Below, in pieces: positions 4,813-29,907 of a stretch of 32,281 bases of DNA (positions are counted from its first letter, which is position 1; each line of letters starts with the position of its first letter). A model generated the notes under the pieces. The model had not been told where the DNA came from, searched no databases, and worked only from the letters and a program-made list of their open reading frames with translations. Source of the DNA: a virus; the IMG/VR virus record IMGVR_UViG_3300032011_000067, positions 1 through 32,281 of that record. One strand, 5' to 3'. The position numbers were made by a program, and so were the translations under genes.

Positions 4813-6248
4813 TGAACTATAACCTAACAGTCATCAACAAAGAGCTAGGCAAGCTTGCTCAGTCTAAGGCGAGGTTTCTTATTCTCTTTGGCGGCAGAGG
4901 CTCAGGCAAAAGCGTAGGCATAGCAAACATACTCCTAGCCAAAGCAATGCAAGGCAAGAAGACAGCTTGCTTTAGAGAGTTCCAGAGCAGTATGCAGGAC
5001 AGCGTTTACTCTTTGCTCTGCTCAGAAATAGAAAGGCAAGGCCTGCAAGATGTATTTGAGATACAAAGCAACCAGATAAACTTTCGCAAGAATGGTGATA
5101 CTGCCTTTGTGTTTAGAGGCTTAGCTAGATCACCAGAGAATGTGAAGTCGTACCATGATTTTGATTTATTCTGGGTAGAGGAAGGACAGAGCCTTAGCTT
5201 TGAAAGTCTCAAGGCACTAACTCCTACTCTGAGAAAAGAAGGAAGCCAGATACTAATTAGTGCAAACCCACGCAGCAAGAATGATGCATTCAGCCAGAGA
5301 TTCTTTACTCCGTTTGAGAAAGAGCTAAGAAGAAACAAGCATTACTCTGATGACTTGCACTGTATCTATTGGGTTAACTACGACAAGAACCCTAAGTTCC
5401 CTACGGTCCTAGAAGATGAAAGGCTGCATGATAAGAAGAGTATGTCAGCAGCTCTGTACAAACATATCTGGGAGGGAGAGTTCTATGATGAGGTCCAAGA
5501 CAGCCTGATAAGCGTGGAGTGGTTTGATTCAGCTATTGACGCTCACGATAAGTTAGGATGGAAGGGAGAAGGCGCGATAATAGCCAGCCATGACCCATCT
5601 GATACAGGCGGTGACTCTAAAGGATTCTGCGTTAGGAGAGGAAACCAAATTCTAGATATCAGCGAGATGGTAACCGGAGAAGCAGCAGACGGAATGGATT
5701 GGGCGCTGGATAAAGCTTTAGAAAGCCAAGCGGATTGGTTTGTATGGGATTGTGATGGCTTAGGTGTTAGTCTTAAACGACAAGTAGATAGCGCATTGGC
5801 CGATAAGAACGGCATAGACTACTTCATGTTCAAAGGCTCAGAAGCTGTAGAGGAGCCAGAGCAACCGTACACTGAAGGCGGCAAAACAAAGAACAAGACC
5901 AACAAGGAAACCTTTTACAACAAGAGGGCGCAGTATTGGTGGCGGCTGCGGGATAGGTTCTACAATACTTATCGTGCAGTTGAGCGTGGAGAATATGTGG
6001 ACCCAGAGGATCAAATTAGCTTATCCTCAAGCATATCTAACCTAGATCAAATTCGTTCTGAGGTTTGCCGCATACCTTTAAAGCGTAGCAACACTGGTAA
6101 AATACAGATTATGTCCAAGATAGAGATGGCTAGAAAGCCTTATCAGCTACCATCTCCAAACATGGGTGACGCTTTAATGATGGCTTGCTACAGGCCCAAG
6201 ACAAAAGCAGCGCCCACTAAGATTAATTTTGCAGGATGGAATGACTGA
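4812..6248 (+). CDS. Terminase large subunit
   Basis: This is the packaging ATPase and nuclease, 478 aa, the usual length. The ATPase domain shows Walker A GGRGSGKS at residues 27-34 and Walker B LFWVEE at about 119-124. The C-terminal RNase-H-like nuclease shows D261 (SHDPSDTGGD), the WDCDG segment with D313/D315, and a late GDALMM acidic residue. The ATP site is of the PBSX/P22-like type, consistent with headful packaging, though the packaging mode cannot be proven here. The start overlaps the preceding stop, and the stop overlaps the portal start (TGATG). Confidence 0.95.
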   Translation: MNYNLTVINKELGKLAQSKARFLILFGGRGSGKSVGIANILLAKAMQGKKTACFREFQSSMQDSVYSLLCSEIERQGLQDVFEIQSNQINFRKNGDTAFVFRGLARSPENVKSYHDFDLFWVEEGQSLSFESLKALTPTLRKEGSQILISANPRSKNDAFSQRFFTPFEKELRRNKHYSDDLHCIYWVNYDKNPKFPTVLEDERLHDKKSMSAALYKHIWEGEFYDEVQDSLISVEWFDSAIDAHDKLGWKGEGAIIASHDPSDTGGDSKGFCVRRGNQILDISEMVTGEAADGMDWALDKALESQADWFVWDCDGLGVSLKRQVDSALADKNGIDYFMFKGSEAVEEPEQPYTEGGKTKNKTNKETFYNKRAQYWWRLRDRFYNTYRAVERGEYVDPEDQISLSSSISNLDQIRSEVCRIPLKRSNTGKIQIMSKIEMARKPYQLPSPNMGDALMMACYRPKTKAAPTKINFAGWND

Positions 6249-8419
6249 TGAAATATAAAGACAAGCCTTACTCCTCAAAGAAATACAAAGAACACGATTA
6301 CGTCTATGACCTTTTAACCAAGTCTCAAAGTGCTGACCAAGACATGAGAGATCAGGCTAGAGAGTGTGCATTGTTCTTGGATAAGAGAGATGGACAGTGG
6401 GAGCCTAAGTGGTTAAGTCAGGCAAAGAACGAGAAAAAGCCACGCTACACTTTTGATATGGTCAATCCTATTGTGGACCAAATTTGTTCAGAGATAACGC
6501 AGGCAGAGTTCGATGTAAAGATTGCGCCTGCTGGCGGTAGTGCTACTCAGTCCATAGCTAACACCTACGATGGAATCATACGCAACATAGAAACCATGAG
6601 TGATGCTTCAGATGTTTATGCAGAGTCAGCCAGAGGAATGGTAGTGGGCGGCTTTGATGCTTGGAGAGTTTCACAGAAATACATTGATGATGATTCTTTT
6701 GAGCAGGACTTGGTGATTGAAAAGATAGGCAATGCCATAGATAGAGTCTTCTTTGATCCAGCAGCCGAGAGACAAGATAAGTCTGATAGCCGTTATTGCT
6801 TTGTTCTACACGCCATAAGCAAAGAAGAGTACCAGCGCAGATGGCCTGATGGCTCAGAGGAAAGCGTATCGGAAGGCAGAGATGGTGATGCTTACTATGA
6901 TAAGGCTGAAGTCATTGTTATTGGTGAGTTTATCTATTGTGAAGAGTCCGACAAAGAGTTAGTCATGTTTGACAGTGGCGCTGTGCATGAGGCTGACAGC
7001 GAATTGAAGAAAGTGATTGATGATTTCAAAGCAATGGGAATCAATGAGATACAAAGAAGAAAGCGAGTTCACAAAACAATTTGCAGTAGATTCTTTGACG
7101 GAAAAGATTGGCTAGAAGATAAATCGGAAACAGTGTTTAGCAGAATGCCTGTTGTTCCTATCTATGCCAACTACAGAATAACTGAGAACAAGTCTATCTA
7201 TTGGGGTGTAGTAGAGAAGCTGCTTGACCCTCAAAGAGTGTTGAACTACTCAGTAAGCAGAGAGATTGAAGAGGGAGCCTTAGCACCTAGAGCCAAGTTT
7301 ATGATGACACCAGCTCAGGCTGCTGGGCATGAAGACACTCTGGCAACGCTCAACACTAACTCTGATCCGGTGCAGTTTTACAATGTTGATCCAGATGCTC
7401 CAAACCCTCCACAACAGGTAGGAGGCGCAGCAATTAATGCTGGACTTAGAACAATCTCTGAGTCGATGAGAGGAATGATTACTTACGCCTCTGGAATGTA
7501 TGCATCAAACATGGGAGAAAATGCAGGCCTACAAAGTGGTGTAGCTATTGAGCAATTACAAAACAAGGGTGACAACTCTACGCTCAAGTATTTCAGTGCC
7601 TTAGAGACAGGTATAAGAGCAACTGGCCGTGTATTGGTAGAGGCTATCCCAAAGGTATACAACACAGCAAGAACGGTTAGGATTCTTAAAGAAGATCAAA
7701 CCTATGATGTAGCTCCGATTAATACGCAACAGATTGACCAACAAACAGGACAAGTTGTAACTCTGAATGATCTCTCTGTAGGCGTTTACGATGTAAGTGT
7801 AAGAGCTGGAGCAAGCTTTAAGAACAGACAGAAAGAGACAATCGACACCATTATTGAGATAGCAAAGATTGATCCCACTATCTTGCAGATTGCTGGTGAT
7901 GTCCTATTGGATAATGTTTCTACTGCGTCAGCAAAACAAATCTCTGACAGAAAGAGAGAGCAGATGCTTTCTCAGGGAATGATACCTCAGTCTCAGATGA
8001 CGCAAGATGAGTTAGCGGCTATGGCTCAGGCTCAACAACAGCCACAAGAACCTGATCCAGCTTTTATGATAGCTCAGGCAGAAATGGGTAAGGCTCAGGC
8101 AGAGCAGTTAAGGGCGCAGATAGAAGGGCAGAAAGTCCAGAATGAAACTATGCGGATACAGCTTGAGGCTCAGAAGATGCAAAACACTTCTGTAGTTGAT
8201 CAGGCAAAGAGTCAGGTAGACATCTTTAATGCTCAGACTAGCAGGCTCAAGGTAGAGGTAGACGCTGAGAAGGCTGGAGCAGCTATAGACAACACTGATG
8301 TTAAGACTTTTGGTGAAGAGATAGACAACCAAAGAAAGATACAAGAGATGAATAACGAGAACCGAATGAGAAGCATGAGCACTCCAGACCTTATGAGAAT
8401 TGCTAATCGTGGACGATAA
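6248..8419 (+). CDS. Portal protein, P22 gp1-like
   Basis: This protein forms the dodecameric DNA entry/exit ring at one capsid vertex. Its length of 723 aa is nearly that of P22 gp1 (725 aa). The N-terminal part contains the WEPKWLSQAKNEKKPRYTFDMVNP segment, followed by a conserved portal core (YWGVVEKLLDPQRVLNYSVSREIE and SGVAIEQLQ). The C-terminus, from about residue 590, is Gln/Ala-rich and predicted coiled coil, as in the long helical barrel of P22 portals. The gene is translationally coupled to the terminase. A P22-type portal fits the gp4/gp10-like genes downstream. Confidence 0.92.
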   Translation: MKYKDKPYSSKKYKEHDYVYDLLTKSQSADQDMRDQARECALFLDKRDGQWEPKWLSQAKNEKKPRYTFDMVNPIVDQICSEITQAEFDVKIAPAGGSATQSIANTYDGIIRNIETMSDASDVYAESARGMVVGGFDAWRVSQKYIDDDSFEQDLVIEKIGNAIDRVFFDPAAERQDKSDSRYCFVLHAISKEEYQRRWPDGSEESVSEGRDGDAYYDKAEVIVIGEFIYCEESDKELVMFDSGAVHEADSELKKVIDDFKAMGINEIQRRKRVHKTICSRFFDGKDWLEDKSETVFSRMPVVPIYANYRITENKSIYWGVVEKLLDPQRVLNYSVSREIEEGALAPRAKFMMTPAQAAGHEDTLATLNTNSDPVQFYNVDPDAPNPPQQVGGAAINAGLRTISESMRGMITYASGMYASNMGENAGLQSGVAIEQLQNKGDNSTLKYFSALETGIRATGRVLVEAIPKVYNTARTVRILKEDQTYDVAPINTQQIDQQTGQVVTLNDLSVGVYDVSVRAGASFKNRQKETIDTIIEIAKIDPTILQIAGDVLLDNVSTASAKQISDRKREQMLSQGMIPQSQMTQDELAAMAQAQQQPQEPDPAFMIAQAEMGKAQAEQLRAQIEGQKVQNETMRIQLEAQKMQNTSVVDQAKSQVDIFNAQTSRLKVEVDAEKAGAAIDNTDVKTFGEEIDNQRKIQEMNNENRMRSMSTPDLMRIANRGR

Positions 8420-8996
8420 GTTAAAGCAATACCTTATTGATAGCGGAGAGTCTTTAATTAAGAAAGGCGCTGATGCTTTAGGTTTTGGTGATGAAAGACA
8501 GCTTGCTATATCTCAAGAGGCAGTAGAGCTTACTAATCAGATGGTAGATGCTGGTTTAATAGGAAAAAACTCTAGAGTTGAGTTGGTCCTGCCAAAAGAA
8601 GGCGAAATGAATAGGCAGAACACAGGAATAAGAGGCGATGAAGAGATATTCAACATAGTCAATCATGCGCTATTTTCTTATTACGCAGGACAGAATCCAT
8701 TAGCTGGTCTTGGCGCTCAGGCTAAGGAACACTTTCAAGCTATTAAGCAGAAGTCGCAAGGCAAAGACCCAAGAACAGAGTACCTTGATTACATCAACAA
8801 TGAGTTTGGGATAGAGCTTGCAAGACAGGGATTAAGTCCAGAAGAAGCTAAGGATGCAATTATGATGACTATTGCTAGTGGTGGCAGGAATAGAGAGTTG
8901 GGGGGCGTTCCTCAGTTTGTGATGGGAAGAGACACACTACAAAACATAAATGATGTACCAAAGTCTCGTTACCCTTGGTTTAACTACAATGAATGA
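8409..8996 (+). CDS. Hypothetical virion-region protein, about 195 aa
   Basis: The start is uncertain. GTG 8409 has a GAGA site about 10 bases upstream and overlaps the portal stop by 11 bp. An in-frame TTG at 8400 would add three residues. The protein is largely helical. An N-terminal segment, DSGESLIKKGADALGFGDERQ, is followed by a region with NPLAGLGAQAKEHFQAIKQ and then EYLDYINNEFGIELARQGLSPEEAK. It has no catalytic motif. It lies between portal and scaffold, where P22 has no extra gene. It is probably head- or ejection-related, but I do not recognise it. Confidence 0.7.
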   Translation: MDDKLKQYLIDSGESLIKKGADALGFGDERQLAISQEAVELTNQMVDAGLIGKNSRVELVLPKEGEMNRQNTGIRGDEEIFNIVNHALFSYYAGQNPLAGLGAQAKEHFQAIKQKSQGKDPRTEYLDYINNEFGIELARQGLSPEEAKDAIMMTIASGGRNRELGGVPQFVMGRDTLQNINDVPKSRYPWFNYNE

Positions 8997-9183
8997 GATC
9001 GCATCAGGACCAGTATCAGCAGTACCTTTAGTTTCAACTCATGTGAACAGAGAAACTAGGACAGAGGTAGTGCATGAGCCTGTTGTCAAGACAGTAGAAC
9101 AAGTGACCGTTATAGATACTTATGATTGGCGTGGTGCTAAAAGCTCTAGAGCCAGAGAATACACAGTTAACTATTTAGTTTAA
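8989..9183 (+). CDS. Hypothetical protein, about 64 aa
   Basis: The ATG at 8989 overlaps the previous stop by 8 bp. An upstream in-frame ATG at 8950 would give 77 aa but lies deep inside the previous gene, and neither has a strong ribosome-binding site. The protein is Val/Thr-rich and beta-like (TRTEVVHEPVVKTVEQVTVIDTYD), with a basic end before YTVNYLV. It has no known motif. It sits between two unknown virion-region genes and is probably coupled to them. The reality of the gene is supported by tight packing, not by homology I can name. Confidence 0.55.
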   Translation: MNEIASGPVSAVPLVSTHVNRETRTEVVHEPVVKTVEQVTVIDTYDWRGAKSSRAREYTVNYLV

Positions 9184-23288: not shown

Positions 23289-26200
23289 ATGGCTAGATTT
23301 GGCGAAATAAACGCACAATACTTTGATGACGCTGGTGATCCTTTAGGCTCTGGAAAGCTTTACTTCTATGATTCAGGAACCACTACATTAAAGACTACTT
23401 ACTCTGATATTAACCAAACGGTAGCGAATACTAATCCGGTTATACTAACTGCGGCTGGTAGACAGCCAAACATATTCTTCAGTGGTAACGCTAAGGCGAT
23501 ACTAACGGACTCCAGTGATGTGCAGATACTGGTGCGTGACCCTGTAGGACAGACTGCTTCAGCCTTTGGTGACGCTTGGGTAGCGACTAAAATATACGAT
23601 GCAGACGCTGTAGTTCTTGGTAGTGATGGTGTTTACTATCGCTCCTTGGTGTCAGCAAACCAGAACAATGATCCTACTTCTACGTCAGGATACTGGACGC
23701 TTCTCTACTCAATAGAGTGGAGTGCAGGAATAACTTATAGTGCTGGAGATGTTGTTACAGTTGGAACCACACAGTTTCAGTCTTTGCAAAATAACAACCT
23801 TAATCAAAATCCAGCTACACAGCCTTCTTTTTGGGTTTCTATAGCGTTTGCTTGGTTATCTACTCAAACTTATGCAATTCATCAGAATGTTGTAGGACCG
23901 GATGGAATCCTTTATACATCTCTTCAGAATTCAAACGTAGGTAATACGCCAGCAAGCTCTGGAGCTTATTGGGTTGGTACAAGTGCGGCTGCGGCAGCGT
24001 CAGCAACGGCAGCGGCTGGATCGGCCTCTACAGCCAGCACTCAGGCCACTAATGCGGCTGCTTCTGCCACAACAGCCACTACACAGGCTACTGCTGCTAC
24101 CACGGCTAAAACGGCTGCTGAGACTGCGAAAACAGCGGCTGAGACTGCTCAGACAGCGGCTGAAACGGCAAAGACTAATGCTGAGACTGCTGAAACTAAT
24201 GCAGCAAATAGTGCATCTGCCAGTGCTACAAGTGCGGCTGCGGCTCTTGTTTCTCAGAACGCAGCAGCTACAAGTGCTACTGCTGCCGCATCTTCAGAAA
24301 GCACTGTGGCAACAGATGCAGCGGCGGCAAGCACGTCAGCCACAAATGCATCTAATTCCGCTACTGCTGCTGCTGGAAGCGCAACCACAGCTACCACTCA
24401 AGCCTCTACAGCTACTACTCAGGCTGGTATTGCTACTACAAAAGCTGGCGAAGCAGCTACAAGTGCTACCGCTGCTGCAACCTCTGCTACTGCCTCTGCT
24501 ACAAGCGCCACGGCATCTGCTAACAGTGCAACCTCTAGTGCGGGTAGTGCTACATCAGCGGCAGCCAGTTTTGATTCTTTCGATGATAGATATTTAGGAG
24601 CCAAATCATCAGACCCATCAGTAGATAATGACGGAGATGCTTTGGTTACAGGGGCTTTATATTTTAATAGCTCCTCTAATGCCATGAAGGTGTATACAGG
24701 AAGTGCTTGGTCTGCGGTTGCTCCTACAGCCACAAGTGTCACTTTATCTCAAGTAACAGATTTCCCAAGTCAATCCGGTCAATCAGGCAAATTTCTCACA
24801 ACAAACGGCTCAGTACCCAGTTGGGCGGAGGCGGCTGCTGCGTCTGGAGAAGTTGAAGCCGTAGCGTCAGAAACGATTACTGCTGGTCAAAGTCTCATTT
24901 TAAAATCAGACGGTCAGGCGGCTCGTGTATCAGGCACTAAAACGGCTGGATTTCAGACCTCATATGTTAATGCCGCTGGCGCTTCAGACCTTATTAGGTC
25001 AGCATTTGATGCGGCAAATAATAAATTAATCATTGCACAGTCTACTAATCAATCTCCCGCTAGTTTAAACGTAAGAGTCGGTGTTGTTTCAGCTTCAGGC
25101 ATTGCTTTCGGTACTGCTGTTCAGGCTCATAACGCTCTCAGTTATGCTTTTGATATTGGTTATGATGCGACAGCAGAGAGAGTGATACTAGCATATAGGG
25201 GAACTTCTAATTATGGCTATGTGGTGATTGGTCAAATAACAGGCTCCAATATCTCGTTTGGAACTCCTGTGCAATTTACCACTACGACTCCGTACACTAT
25301 TTCTCTGAGCAAAGACACAGCCAACAATAAGTGGACGATGATGTGGAGCCACAATGCAAGCACTCTTTACGGCTCTATAATAACGATCAGCAATTTAACC
25401 CCTTCAGTCACTACACCTGCAAATCTTGGCATTTCTGCAACGCATATCGGTAGCACTTATGACGCATTAAACTCTCGAATTGCGGTGGCTTGTGCTTCTG
25501 GAGCGGGTGGAGTAATAACGGCAGTTTTTACCTCTAATGGAACTGCGTTGACAAAAATAGGAACAGAAATACAGACTTCCGTATTTGGGAGTAGTGGATT
25601 CGAGCAAGATATTGTCTATCACTCAGATCAAGACGTTTATGTCGTTGCTAGTCAAGACAACTCTACTAAAGCCTATGCTTTTGCATGGAAAGTAAACACG
25701 GCATCGACTAATACACTTGCAGTGACGGTGGCAGACTCAGGTAGTGGCAATAAATTTTATATTGATGGTGTTGAGCAAGCCTCCTTAGTATTAACTGAGG
25801 GAAATACTTATAAGTTTGATCAATCTAATGCCACAAATGCGACACATCCTTTATTACTTAGCACCACAAGCGATGGTACCCATGGAGGCGGTAGTTCTTA
25901 CACCACGGGAGTGACCGTTGTTGGGACTGCTGGCCAAGCTGGGGCTTATGTGCAGATCGTCGTTGCCGCTTCAGCCCCATCGCTTTATTACTATTGTTCA
26001 AATCATTCTGGGATGGGTGGAGCTATCACGACTCCTGTTCTCGCCACTTATTCTGCTGGCGCGCCAATTAAGTTAGGTGGTGGGCTTGCCAATGATTCGC
26101 TCAATTACAATTCTCAACAAGCGGTCTATATGACTGCAATTAATAAAACTTACATTAGAACAAATGCGGCAGGTAGTGGTCAGCAAAAATATAATGAAAT

Positions 26201-28154
26201 TACAGTCTCGGGAACAACAGTTTCTGAAAGTGGATCAGCAAGAACAATCGACCCAAGATATTTTGGTAGTTCAGTTAAGGATACTTTTGTTAATTCTGCC
26301 ATTTATCTAAGCTCACTAAATGCGATTTGTGTCGTTTCTGCAAATAGTGCTTCTGCTGGAAATCCAGACACAACTTTTGCCAAAGTGATTTCTATTGGTT
26401 ATGAGTCTACAAATGCTGGCAAGTATATCGGCCTAGCTGCTGAAAATATTGCCTCTGGAGCAACTGGAAAAATAAGCATAATTAGTGCAACAAATAATAA
26501 CGTGTCTGGCTTAACTGTCGGGCAAGAATACTGGCTGGATTATGACGGTTCTTTTTCTACTACTGAAACGGCTTATTCTAAAGTTGGTATAGCTAGAAGC
26601 GCGACAAGTATGTTATTGACTGCGAATTCGTTGGTGCCAACTGCGCCATCTACAACTGGGCGAAGAAATTATGAAGTAAATGGAACGGTTAGTTCTGGTG
26701 ATTTGTTGTTTCTCGACGCATCTGGTTTGCCAGCAAAAGTAGAAAAAAGGTTCACTGTTGCGACTCAAAAATCCCAGTCTATGAATTCCTATAATCCATC
26801 TGGAACGGCATGGGCAAGCTATACGCAAGAGCAATTTGCTAATCTCCCAACTCCAGACGGTGGCGGGATAATTATGGCAACCAACAGTAGCAACTATATG
26901 CACGCCATACCATATACTATTTCTGCTGAAGGAAATTTCACTTATGGCGCTGCCTATAATCTGACAAACGGCTACGGAGTTTCAGCCACTCCATATATAT
27001 ATTTTGATGCGGCGTGGGATAACTTGCATCAACAATGGGTTGCTATTTATCAATCTGGCAGCACTGTCTTCATGGTGTATCTGAGAAAGGAAAATAACGG
27101 CGTTACATTTGAAAACGAGATTAATTACAGTTCGCCACAATATGACAATCTCGGTTCTTGGGGTGGTAACAACTGGGGTATTCAATTAGGTATGTTCAAA
27201 GAAACGGGTGACTATGTTGCCATGATGCAAAACGTGGGAGGCAGCAATTACGCGAAAATTTTATTTAGGCGATACAACACAACAACCTCCAAAACAACGA
27301 CAGTTGGCACTTTTTCCGGTGGTCTTCCTATTACCTATGCTTGGGGCTGGGGTTACAACGATAAAACTAATATCTTCTATATGAGTAAAAAATATTCTGC
27401 TGGGTATTATTTTAGTGGTTTTGTTTACGACTCATCAAGTGACACTTATGCGACATCAAGCGGAGGTTTTAGCAATCAATACATTGCTGGAACAAATTTC
27501 CCTAACCACTCTAATAGTAGTTGGACATATGCTATCCCGATGATGTATGACCCTGCTTCCGATAAGATGCTTTTTTCCTATATTGGCAGTAATAATGCTT
27601 ATCAACAGATGGCTGCTTTGACCATTTCAGTGGGTAGCCCATTTTTAGCTCAAACGACAGGTTCAGACTGGACGGAAGGCTATAACGGTTATAATGGGTA
27701 TAGCAAACCAAGGTTCCAAACTTCGAGTGAAACTGGGATTTGTACTCTTGCATATGGCGGTAAAATCCGTTCATTTATGTTTGATGGAACAGTTATCAAT
27801 ATGCTTAATTTGGTTTCAGGCATTAGCTCCTCCTATGATAGTTTCAATGCTTTTTATAACCCAGTCAGTGACACGATAAGAGTTAGCTGGAAGCAATCTA
27901 CTACTGCTTATTTCGCTTATGAATTAAGCACGTTTAGCTCTAACAGTGGACTGTTCTTTGGCGTTGCTAACTCATCTGCAACTTTGGGACTAGATGCGCG
28001 AGTTGATTTGGTTGGGGGCATAAACCAAGATCAAACAAATCTAACCCAAGGCTCCACTTATTACGCAACTGCTGATGGCACCTTAACAACGACCTCCAAT
28101 TCAAGCAGGGTCGGTCTAGCAATTAACGCTAATGATCTCTATATCAAAGGATAA
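23289..28154 (+). CDS. Giant modular tail fibre with cupredoxin-like insert, 1621 aa
   Basis: Domains in order: residues 1-90, a P22-tailspike-like head-binding region (GKLYFYDSGTTTLKTTYSD...NPVILTAAGR); 97-139, 144-183 and 189-229, three CBM5/12-like repeats with the W...Y..GdvV...Y.sl..N....P..W pattern; 231-427, an Ala/Thr/Ser-rich heptad coiled coil; 428-512, a linker domain beginning FDDRYLG. Two related modules follow, about 519-1124 and 1125-1621. Each opens with G-EV-(N)...G.(S/L)L.L...G.pa and has propeller-like repeats. Each closes with a YIGLA..I.SG...LT.G..Y..DG..(S/T)TT...VG.A domain (about 1043-1115 and 1553-1621). Module 1 also carries a cupredoxin-like insert (about 808-918) with H853, C903, H906, M909. 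It is the probable host-recognition organelle. Fold calls inside the modules are by pattern. Confidence 0.85.
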   Translation: MARFGEINAQYFDDAGDPLGSGKLYFYDSGTTTLKTTYSDINQTVANTNPVILTAAGRQPNIFFSGNAKAILTDSSDVQILVRDPVGQTASAFGDAWVATKIYDADAVVLGSDGVYYRSLVSANQNNDPTSTSGYWTLLYSIEWSAGITYSAGDVVTVGTTQFQSLQNNNLNQNPATQPSFWVSIAFAWLSTQTYAIHQNVVGPDGILYTSLQNSNVGNTPASSGAYWVGTSAAAAASATAAAGSASTASTQATNAAASATTATTQATAATTAKTAAETAKTAAETAQTAAETAKTNAETAETNAANSASASATSAAAALVSQNAAATSATAAASSESTVATDAAAASTSATNASNSATAAAGSATTATTQASTATTQAGIATTKAGEAATSATAAATSATASATSATASANSATSSAGSATSAAASFDSFDDRYLGAKSSDPSVDNDGDALVTGALYFNSSSNAMKVYTGSAWSAVAPTATSVTLSQVTDFPSQSGQSGKFLTTNGSVPSWAEAAAASGEVEAVASETITAGQSLILKSDGQAARVSGTKTAGFQTSYVNAAGASDLIRSAFDAANNKLIIAQSTNQSPASLNVRVGVVSASGIAFGTAVQAHNALSYAFDIGYDATAERVILAYRGTSNYGYVVIGQITGSNISFGTPVQFTTTTPYTISLSKDTANNKWTMMWSHNASTLYGSIITISNLTPSVTTPANLGISATHIGSTYDALNSRIAVACASGAGGVITAVFTSNGTALTKIGTEIQTSVFGSSGFEQDIVYHSDQDVYVVASQDNSTKAYAFAWKVNTASTNTLAVTVADSGSGNKFYIDGVEQASLVLTEGNTYKFDQSNATNATHPLLLSTTSDGTHGGGSSYTTGVTVVGTAGQAGAYVQIVVAASAPSLYYYCSNHSGMGGAITTPVLATYSAGAPIKLGGGLANDSLNYNSQQAVYMTAINKTYIRTNAAGSGQQKYNEITVSGTTVSESGSARTIDPRYFGSSVKDTFVNSAIYLSSLNAICVVSANSASAGNPDTTFAKVISIGYESTNAGKYIGLAAENIASGATGKISIISATNNNVSGLTVGQEYWLDYDGSFSTTETAYSKVGIARSATSMLLTANSLVPTAPSTTGRRNYEVNGTVSSGDLLFLDASGLPAKVEKRFTVATQKSQSMNSYNPSGTAWASYTQEQFANLPTPDGGGIIMATNSSNYMHAIPYTISAEGNFTYGAAYNLTNGYGVSATPYIYFDAAWDNLHQQWVAIYQSGSTVFMVYLRKENNGVTFENEINYSSPQYDNLGSWGGNNWGIQLGMFKETGDYVAMMQNVGGSNYAKILFRRYNTTTSKTTTVGTFSGGLPITYAWGWGYNDKTNIFYMSKKYSAGYYFSGFVYDSSSDTYATSSGGFSNQYIAGTNFPNHSNSSWTYAIPMMYDPASDKMLFSYIGSNNAYQQMAALTISVGSPFLAQTTGSDWTEGYNGYNGYSKPRFQTSSETGICTLAYGGKIRSFMFDGTVINMLNLVSGISSSYDSFNAFYNPVSDTIRVSWKQSTTAYFAYELSTFSSNSGLFFGVANSSATLGLDARVDLVGGINQDQTNLTQGSTYYATADGTLTTTSNSSRVGLAINANDLYIKG
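24105..24203 (+). repeat. 21-bp tandem heptad repeats in the fibre gene
   Basis: Four 21-base units and a partial fifth encode A-K-T-A-A-E-T, A-K-T-A-A-E-T, A-Q-T-A-A-E-T, A-K-T-N-A-E-T and A-E-T-N-A. They form one stretch of the larger Ala/Thr/Ser heptad region (residues 231-427) expected to form a trimeric coiled-coil shaft. The repeat could expand or contract and change fibre length. Confidence 0.75.
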
Positions 28155-28658: not shown

Positions 28659-29155
28659 TTGGAGAGGCTATTTTAGCCATCAAAGCGTTAGACACCGCCT
28701 TTGTCACGGTTCAAGGACTTATCGCTAAGAAAAAAGATGTTGAGGACATGGCTGGTGAGGTTGGTAAATTTTTCACCGCTAAAAAGAAAGTAGAGGAACA
28801 TATTGCTAATGCAAGAAAAGCTGGCACTGATGACTTAATGACAGGCTCCGCACTAGAAGAAGCGATTACAATAGACCAGCAAGAGGAGCGGATTGAGAAG
28901 ATGATGGAGAAGATTCGTGACCATTACATGAAAAAAGGACAAACACACCGCTGGGCAAAAATTAAACAACAGGCAGCAATTATAGAGAAAAAGCGCGAGG
29001 TAAAACGCAAAGCTAATGCAGCGGCTAGATTGGCAGCTAATCAAGAAGAAGAAATGTTAATACATGATTTAGCAAAATTGTTTTTATATTTGGTAGGCAC
29101 AATAACTGTAATAGCTGGTGTTGTTTTCTTAATATTTGGTAGTGGAGCTGAATAA
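28655..29155 (+). CDS. Tail-anchored coiled-coil membrane protein, 166 aa
   Basis: The N-terminal 140 residues are helical and rich in Lys/Glu, with a coiled-coil-prone region (QEERIEKMMEKIRDHYMKKG). A single hydrophobic span occupies about 142-162 (LFLYLVGTITVIAGVVFLIFG) and only four residues follow. This predicts a cytoplasmic coiled coil anchored by its C-terminus in the inner membrane. It lies in the lysis module between two envelope-related genes and is coupled by overlaps on both sides. It may be an accessory holin or membrane-organising protein. Not a classical spanin, which anchors by its N-terminus. Confidence 0.7.
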   Translation: MIGEAILAIKALDTAFVTVQGLIAKKKDVEDMAGEVGKFFTAKKKVEEHIANARKAGTDDLMTGSALEEAITIDQQEERIEKMMEKIRDHYMKKGQTHRWAKIKQQAAIIEKKREVKRKANAAARLAANQEEEMLIHDLAKLFLYLVGTITVIAGVVFLIFGSGAE

Positions 29156-29907
29156 TGAAACTAGACCCTGTACTTCTAAATATGGCTTGTTCTTGGAGCA
29201 TGAAGGCCTACCGAGAAGGCTATGTAGAAGACTGCATAAGAGTCGAGACTAAATGGAGTTCAACAACAGCACTAATAGCCAAGCGTAAGACTATTGACGT
29301 TATAGCTTTCAAAGGCACTGAGGACGGCTTAGACTGGCTTACAGATGCCTTGGTAGTACCAGTACCCTATGCGGGAAGAATGTGTCATGGCGGCTTCACA
29401 CTGGCTCACAAGTCTATTTGGAAGAAAATACTAAGACACATAGATTTAAACAAGCGTACCTTGATAACAGGTCATTCGTTAGGCGGGGCATTGGCTGAAC
29501 TGTCTGCTGCTAAGTTGTGGAAGAAGCATGACAACCTCAACATAATTACTTTTGGCAAGCCAAATACTTTCTTTAAAGGATTCAAGCAGCCTATGACTAC
29601 GCTGGATAATCAAATATCTTGCGTACAGGGATCAGATTTAGTAGCAAGAATACCTAAGTTTTGCTATGGACCTAGTAAGTCGCAAACAATGTTATACTTT
29701 GCCAATACAGGTGTGGACTTTGTAAACCCTGACAAACTTACCAGAGATGAAGACAGGCGTATAAAAGATGCGTTATCAGATCATTTTATGGAAGGCTACA
29801 AAGAAAGGCTGTCAGTGTTTTTGGAAGAACAAGATAAGAAACCAAACAAAAAGATAGGTGAAGAATTGTTAGAAACTAAACCTAAGAAGAGGAAACGAAA
29901 TGCTTAG
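29155..29907 (+). CDS. Class 3 lipase-like alpha/beta hydrolase, 250 aa
   Basis: This hydrolase is expected to cleave acyl esters. The class 3 lipase layout is complete: AFKGTEDGLDWLTDA near residues 51-65, the nucleophile elbow GHSLGG with S108, the GSDLVARIP segment with D161, and the late LSDHFMEGY with H210. This gives a plausible Ser-Asp-His triad. There is no signal peptide or membrane span. The C-terminus is Lys/Arg-rich. It starts at the TAATG overlap and overlaps the lipoprotein gene by 8 bp, within the lysis module. It may attack membrane lipids during lysis, which is inferred. Confidence 0.88.
   Translation: MKLDPVLLNMACSWSMKAYREGYVEDCIRVETKWSSTTALIAKRKTIDVIAFKGTEDGLDWLTDALVVPVPYAGRMCHGGFTLAHKSIWKKILRHIDLNKRTLITGHSLGGALAELSAAKLWKKHDNLNIITFGKPNTFFKGFKQPMTTLDNQISCVQGSDLVARIPKFCYGPSKSQTMLYFANTGVDFVNPDKLTRDEDRRIKDALSDHFMEGYKERLSVFLEEQDKKPNKKIGEELLETKPKKRKRNA

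Follow-up and report, generated by a model that had tools for sequence, protein, structure and literature searches.

The window (the whole 32,281-nucleotide stretch of DNA analysed here, from the viral record IMGVR_UViG_3300032011_000067) is part of the genome of a marine P22-like podovirus, with a tail fibre gene that follows genes for a terminase, a P22-type portal, a stabilisation protein and a gp7-like ejection protein. The features of this gene are as follows.

23289-28154, plus strand: tail fibre gene, 1621 aa (open reading frame; PHROG tail-fibre matches; 3' of the ejection-protein-like genes)
24843-25700, plus strand: upstream fibre region, residues 519-804, predicted beta-propeller blades (AF2, structure matches)
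25710-26033, plus strand: cupredoxin domain, residues 808-915, with a predicted complete type-1 copper ligand set (AF2, PDB matches, conservation)
25845-25847, plus strand: H853, first predicted ligand, counterpart of the plastocyanin core His (invariant; aligned with the His of plastocyanin APHN)
25995-25997, plus strand: C903, predicted Cys thiolate ligand (invariant; aligned with the plastocyanin Cys)
26004-26006, plus strand: H906, predicted ligand (invariant; aligned with the His of plastocyanin CEPH)
26013-26015, plus strand: M909, predicted axial ligand in a Cys-x2-His-x2-Met loop (invariant)
26034-26654, plus strand: downstream fibre region, residues 916-1122, same module as in the related loci L001 and L283; low pLDDT
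26709-28151, plus strand: C-terminal region, residues 1141-1621, without the cupredoxin insert (weak similarity to residues 519-1122)

Shortly 3' of the fibre gene, at 29155-29907, lies a class 3 lipase gene (PF01764, 65 bits; PHROG esterase/lipase), and the N-terminal part of the fibre itself (residues 143-182, 23715-23834) gave a weak match to carbohydrate-binding module 5/12, at 19 bits against a cut-off of 26.2.

Modelling of residues 519-1122 with AF2 from three sequences gave a mean pLDDT of 44, with the cupredoxin part and everything 3' of it poorly modelled. Values of 64-87 were confined to residues ~568-756 of the upstream region, which matched propellers at Z up to 18, and propeller lectins were among the structure matches of the region just upstream of the cupredoxin domain. 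This suggests, with moderate confidence and as a hint of fold only, that the upstream region adjoining the domain consists of propeller blades. The similarity of the C-terminal region to residues 519-1122 amounts to 21% identity over 254 columns (E 2e-10). Fibre residues 480-1621 are present in L001 at 86% identity and residues 117-1621 in L283 at 53% identity, the N-terminal part of the latter being different. As the module recurs in both loci, and in L283 behind a different N-terminus, it is an exchangeable distal unit that takes the cupredoxin along with it. In L283, which is probably a phage of another morphotype, the gene carrying the shared distal module and the cupredoxin (5374-9174) is located 3' of a tape-measure-like gene.

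A preliminary description of this DNA, made from the sequence, had suggested a cupredoxin barrel within the fibre, and structure prediction bore this out. The AF2 model of the domain, built from 57 sequences, is a confident barrel of eight strands (pLDDT 96.7, pTM 0.89), and both the model and its PDB matches, which cupredoxins lead, agree with the Greek-key beta-sandwich of about eight strands that characterises the cupredoxin superfamily. The best Foldseek match in the PDB was 2dv6 (E 2.9e-4, probability 1.00), followed by rusticyanins, and the best VIA-align match was the N-terminal cupredoxin domain of HdNIR, with a Z-score of 9.6 and an rmsd of 2.4 over 97 residues. Cupredoxin-fold chains made up all of the best 50 VIA-align matches listed, with middling Z-scores below the first rows, and rusticyanin and laccases were also among the best matches to solved structures. 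Predicted viral structures yielded 61 matches at E <= 0.001, with structural proteins of cyanophages at the top.

All four proposed copper ligands were found in the translated open reading frame at the places where the preliminary description had put them, and H853, C903, H906 and M909 follow the type-1 ligand order His ... Cys-x(2-4)-His-x(n)-Met. The ligand order that it had read thus stood, while the spacing was refined to Cys-x2-His-x2-Met, two residues shorter than that of plastocyanin. The ligand stretch of the fibre domain is YYYCSNHSGMGG. The domain has no Cys other than C903 (the whole fibre has 4), and residue composition would lead to an expectation of 0.00035 CxxHxxM motifs in the whole fibre. 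By computed fold and by sequence, the domain at residues 808-915 of the fibre is a member of the cupredoxin superfamily with a complete type-1 ligand set.

Related stretches are numerous in viral contigs, with 258 in a first scan and at least 593 in a second, and a genome scan of cellular assemblies yielded 143 more; a search of a plasmid collection returned no match. Using tblastn free of any motif pattern, the domain was detected in 31 phage records, nearly all of them cyanophages and Pelagibacter phages, where the carriers are annotated as tail fibre, virion structural or hypothetical proteins. Some fibres contain tandem pairs of the domain. When all retrieved loci were searched with a profile, the His, Cys, His and Met were kept in 226/226 complete non-redundant relatives, comprising 130/130 copies from viral contigs, 81/81 cellular copies and 15/15 copies from isolated phages. 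Variable ligands among homologues would have counted against the site, and no such variation was found. This invariance is not an artefact of the searches, because H853 lay outside every search pattern used and the isolated-phage set came from the pattern-free tblastn. The 57-row alignment has 11 invariant columns, which include all four ligands (the chance of four named positions among 112 all falling in invariant columns is 5e-5), and in a more diverse set of 68 rows, some as little as 38% identical to the window copy, the only invariant residues were Y, H, C, H, M and G.

When the window was compared with L001, its nearest relative, dN/dS was 0.05 in the domain and 0.18-0.19 in the flanks; between the window and L283 it was 0.075 and 0.18-0.20, respectively, with synonymous sites close to saturated. 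These values indicate that purifying selection acts more strongly on the domain than on the flanks. Four cyanomyovirus structural proteins (L247, L248, L249 and L251) have a second, partial domain match without the Cys, at about residues 780-1000 of their open reading frames, showing that the fold can persist in the absence of the site. Because the scaffold can exist without the site, the invariance in the main copies is informative. Selection keeps both the fold and the ligand set.

A profile search against cupredoxin families, which the preliminary description had proposed, linked the family to plastocyanin-family proteins, but the window copy alone matched none of them. PF00127 was matched by 13/68 family members at E <= 1 (best E 2.7e-5) and the plastocyanin model TIGR02656 by four of the 68 (best 1.5e-4). 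The copy in a Woeseiaceae lipoprotein (L152) passes the PF00127 cut-off, with 24.0 versus 21.2 bits, the match (G012:C2:18750-18980) being placed in the L152 domain by contig position and a 627-aa open frame. The window copy itself (P0002) matched no Pfam or NCBIfam family and no sequence of a solved structure; it does not reach the PF00127 cut-off and is not filed as a member, but as L152 does pass, the window copy is a relative that falls under the detection line. In an hhalign comparison of the family with Prochlorococcus plastocyanin, H853, C903 and H906 met the ligands of that protein (single sequence, probability 35), and comparison with a secreted single-domain Prochlorococcus cupredoxin gave a probability of 96.7 over 81 columns. 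The gene for this small secreted cupredoxin (L258, 1498-1902, minus strand) encodes the same TTG..GTPG loop and bridges PF00127 and the fibre domain. The fibre domain is a homologue of plastocyanin-family proteins and of a marine family whose members occur in phage fibres and in cellular lipoproteins.

The domain is shared by phage fibres and by surface proteins of marine bacteria and archaea. A simple pattern for a lipoprotein-type N-terminus was matched by 22/80 cellular open reading frames versus 0/177 from phages and viruses. The cellular proteins include SAR86 lipoproteins of 167-188 aa that are little more than the domain, gammaproteobacterial lipoproteins combining it with cadherin-like stretches, and Marine Group II archaeal lipoproteins combining it with collagen-like repeats (domain names in the latter two assigned by eye). 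Giant open frames of marine Bacteroidetes, thousands of residues in length, also contain the domain (L086, L087, L090, L093, L095, L102, L103, L121 and L129). In a tree of viral and cellular copies, which had few columns and unsettled bootstraps, the two kinds of copies interleave; the 'viral' label has to change at least 7 times to satisfy the well-supported branches. Some loci labelled cellular are phage-like, namely SAR11 single-cell genomes with fibre-like open reading frames and several Maricaulis bin contigs, so that claims about origin rest on the lipoproteins and on large contigs, among them L134 (1.19 Mb), L136 (520 kb) and L145 (471 kb).

Judging from the fold and the ligand set, the fibre domain very probably binds copper. 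It would hold one copper ion, taken up from lysate or seawater, since fibre synthesis takes place in the cytoplasm and the protein lacks an export route. Less certain than copper binding is what the domain would do in the adsorption fibre, where, from context alone, it is most likely an accessory contact module, a metal-rigidified stability module or both; a ready-made domain would have been exchanged between phages and host surface proteins. The contact and stability roles that the preliminary description had offered are accordingly plausible in context, and the copper sensor that it had also proposed is without any evidence. The fibre cupredoxin is probably not an electron carrier, and the analysis gave no support for an electron-transfer role. 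A soluble plastocyanin acquired as a metabolic gene was rejected as a candidate, the domain being internal to the fibre. We consider it likely that the explanation holds as a whole, with a cupredoxin bearing a type-1 set in a propeller-containing distal fibre module, where it would bind copper and serve in contact or stability.

The same domain could instead be a rigid beta-sandwich spacer or display domain, comparable to phage Ig-like domains, whose conserved residues bind zinc, another metal or none. Such a use fits the ligand-less partial second copies in cyanomyovirus structural proteins and the tandem copies in several fibres, but pure spacing would give no reason to conserve His, Cys, His and Met in 226/226 complete copies that otherwise diverge to ~40% identity, which leaves this reading improbable. 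It is more doubtful still that the copper-loaded fibre acts as a lure, recognised by a host receptor for copper uptake or cupredoxin docking: the iron Trojan Horse proposed for marine phage fibres offers a precedent (PMC11705849) and lipoproteins of marine microbes contain the same domain, yet no receptor and no copper-dependent adsorption are known.

An immunoglobulin-like domain, with a Cys/His/Met arrangement that resembles a copper site by chance, was raised by the first-profile hmmsearch of the PDB, which ranked antibody chains first at E 0.2-1; like the single-sequence search of the PDB, it returned only noise. The structure search, however, puts cupredoxins first, a broader profile brings in pseudoazurin and plastocyanin at E near 0.5-1, and one family copy passes the PF00127 cut-off. 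An Ig-like domain was rejected on fold and ligands and is extremely improbable.

No earlier report of a cupredoxin or plastocyanin-like domain in a phage tail fibre was found in the open-access literature, where the nearest published concept found was iron in phage fibres and the Trojan Horse idea based on HxH motifs (PMC11705849). The preliminary description called a metal-binding or redox module in an adsorption protein unusual; a domain of the present kind is undescribed in that literature but common in marine phages, hundreds of whose sequences contain it, as do surface lipoproteins of marine microorganisms. A domain that PHROGs contains only within structural and tail-fibre families, and for which Pfam has no model, receives a name and a fold from this analysis. 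The predicted site suggests that the adhesion parts of marine phages may be copper-bearing; metal sites in fibres have been discussed for iron, and the invariant type-1 set makes a copper counterpart directly testable in cultured Pelagibacter phages and cyanophages, of which HTVC028P and S-TIM5, respectively, are carriers of the domain. A broader and rather speculative proposal, that several marine phage morphotypes carry copper-loaded type-1 fibre cupredoxins as a virion part that depends on metal and that was acquired from host surface lipoproteins or is shared with them, and that copper affects their adsorption or virion stability in the ocean, is possible but on the unlikely side.

Finally, the fibre domain can be compared with known systems. 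It is like the plastocyanin/azurin family PF00127 in fold, in His...Cys-x2-His...Met order and in detectable profile homology, whereas the proteins of that family are small exported electron carriers and the fibre domain is part of a large virion fibre. The small, exported, single-domain form of plastocyanin and amicyanin electron carriers does not apply to a domain inside a 1621-aa fibre. In plastocyanin (Cys-x2-His-x4-Met) the loop from Cys to Met is two residues longer, and the TTGV..GTPG stretch that the fibre domain keeps before its Cys is absent. The ligands of amicyanin are Cys92-His95-Met98, a Cys-x2-His-x2-Met loop equal to that of the fibre domain; the title of PDB 2vmj gives this amicyanin-type loop as CTPHPFM. 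The His-to-Cys distance of 50 residues in the fibre domain is longer than in amicyanin, however, and the amicyanin partner, methylamine dehydrogenase, has no counterpart here.

The best structural match, the N-terminal cupredoxin of Hyphomicrobium denitrificans nitrite reductase (2dv6, 6tfd; 21% identity), belongs to an enzyme, unlike the fibre domain. The Prochlorococcus cupredoxin (L258, P0003) shares HPF, GGG..TTGI..GTPG and YYYVCSPH..GMGG segments with the fibre family, but differs in being stand-alone, in its signal-like N-terminus and in its Cys-x2-His-x4-Met spacing. Metal sites have also been solved or proposed in the HxH iron-binding fibres (T4 gp37; Alteromonas phage R22Y, PMC11705849), as one is predicted here. 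The three His residues of the domain (853, 865 and 906) form no HxH motif, and whereas those fibres hold iron through HxH motifs in the shaft, the present fibre has a folded, predicted copper domain.
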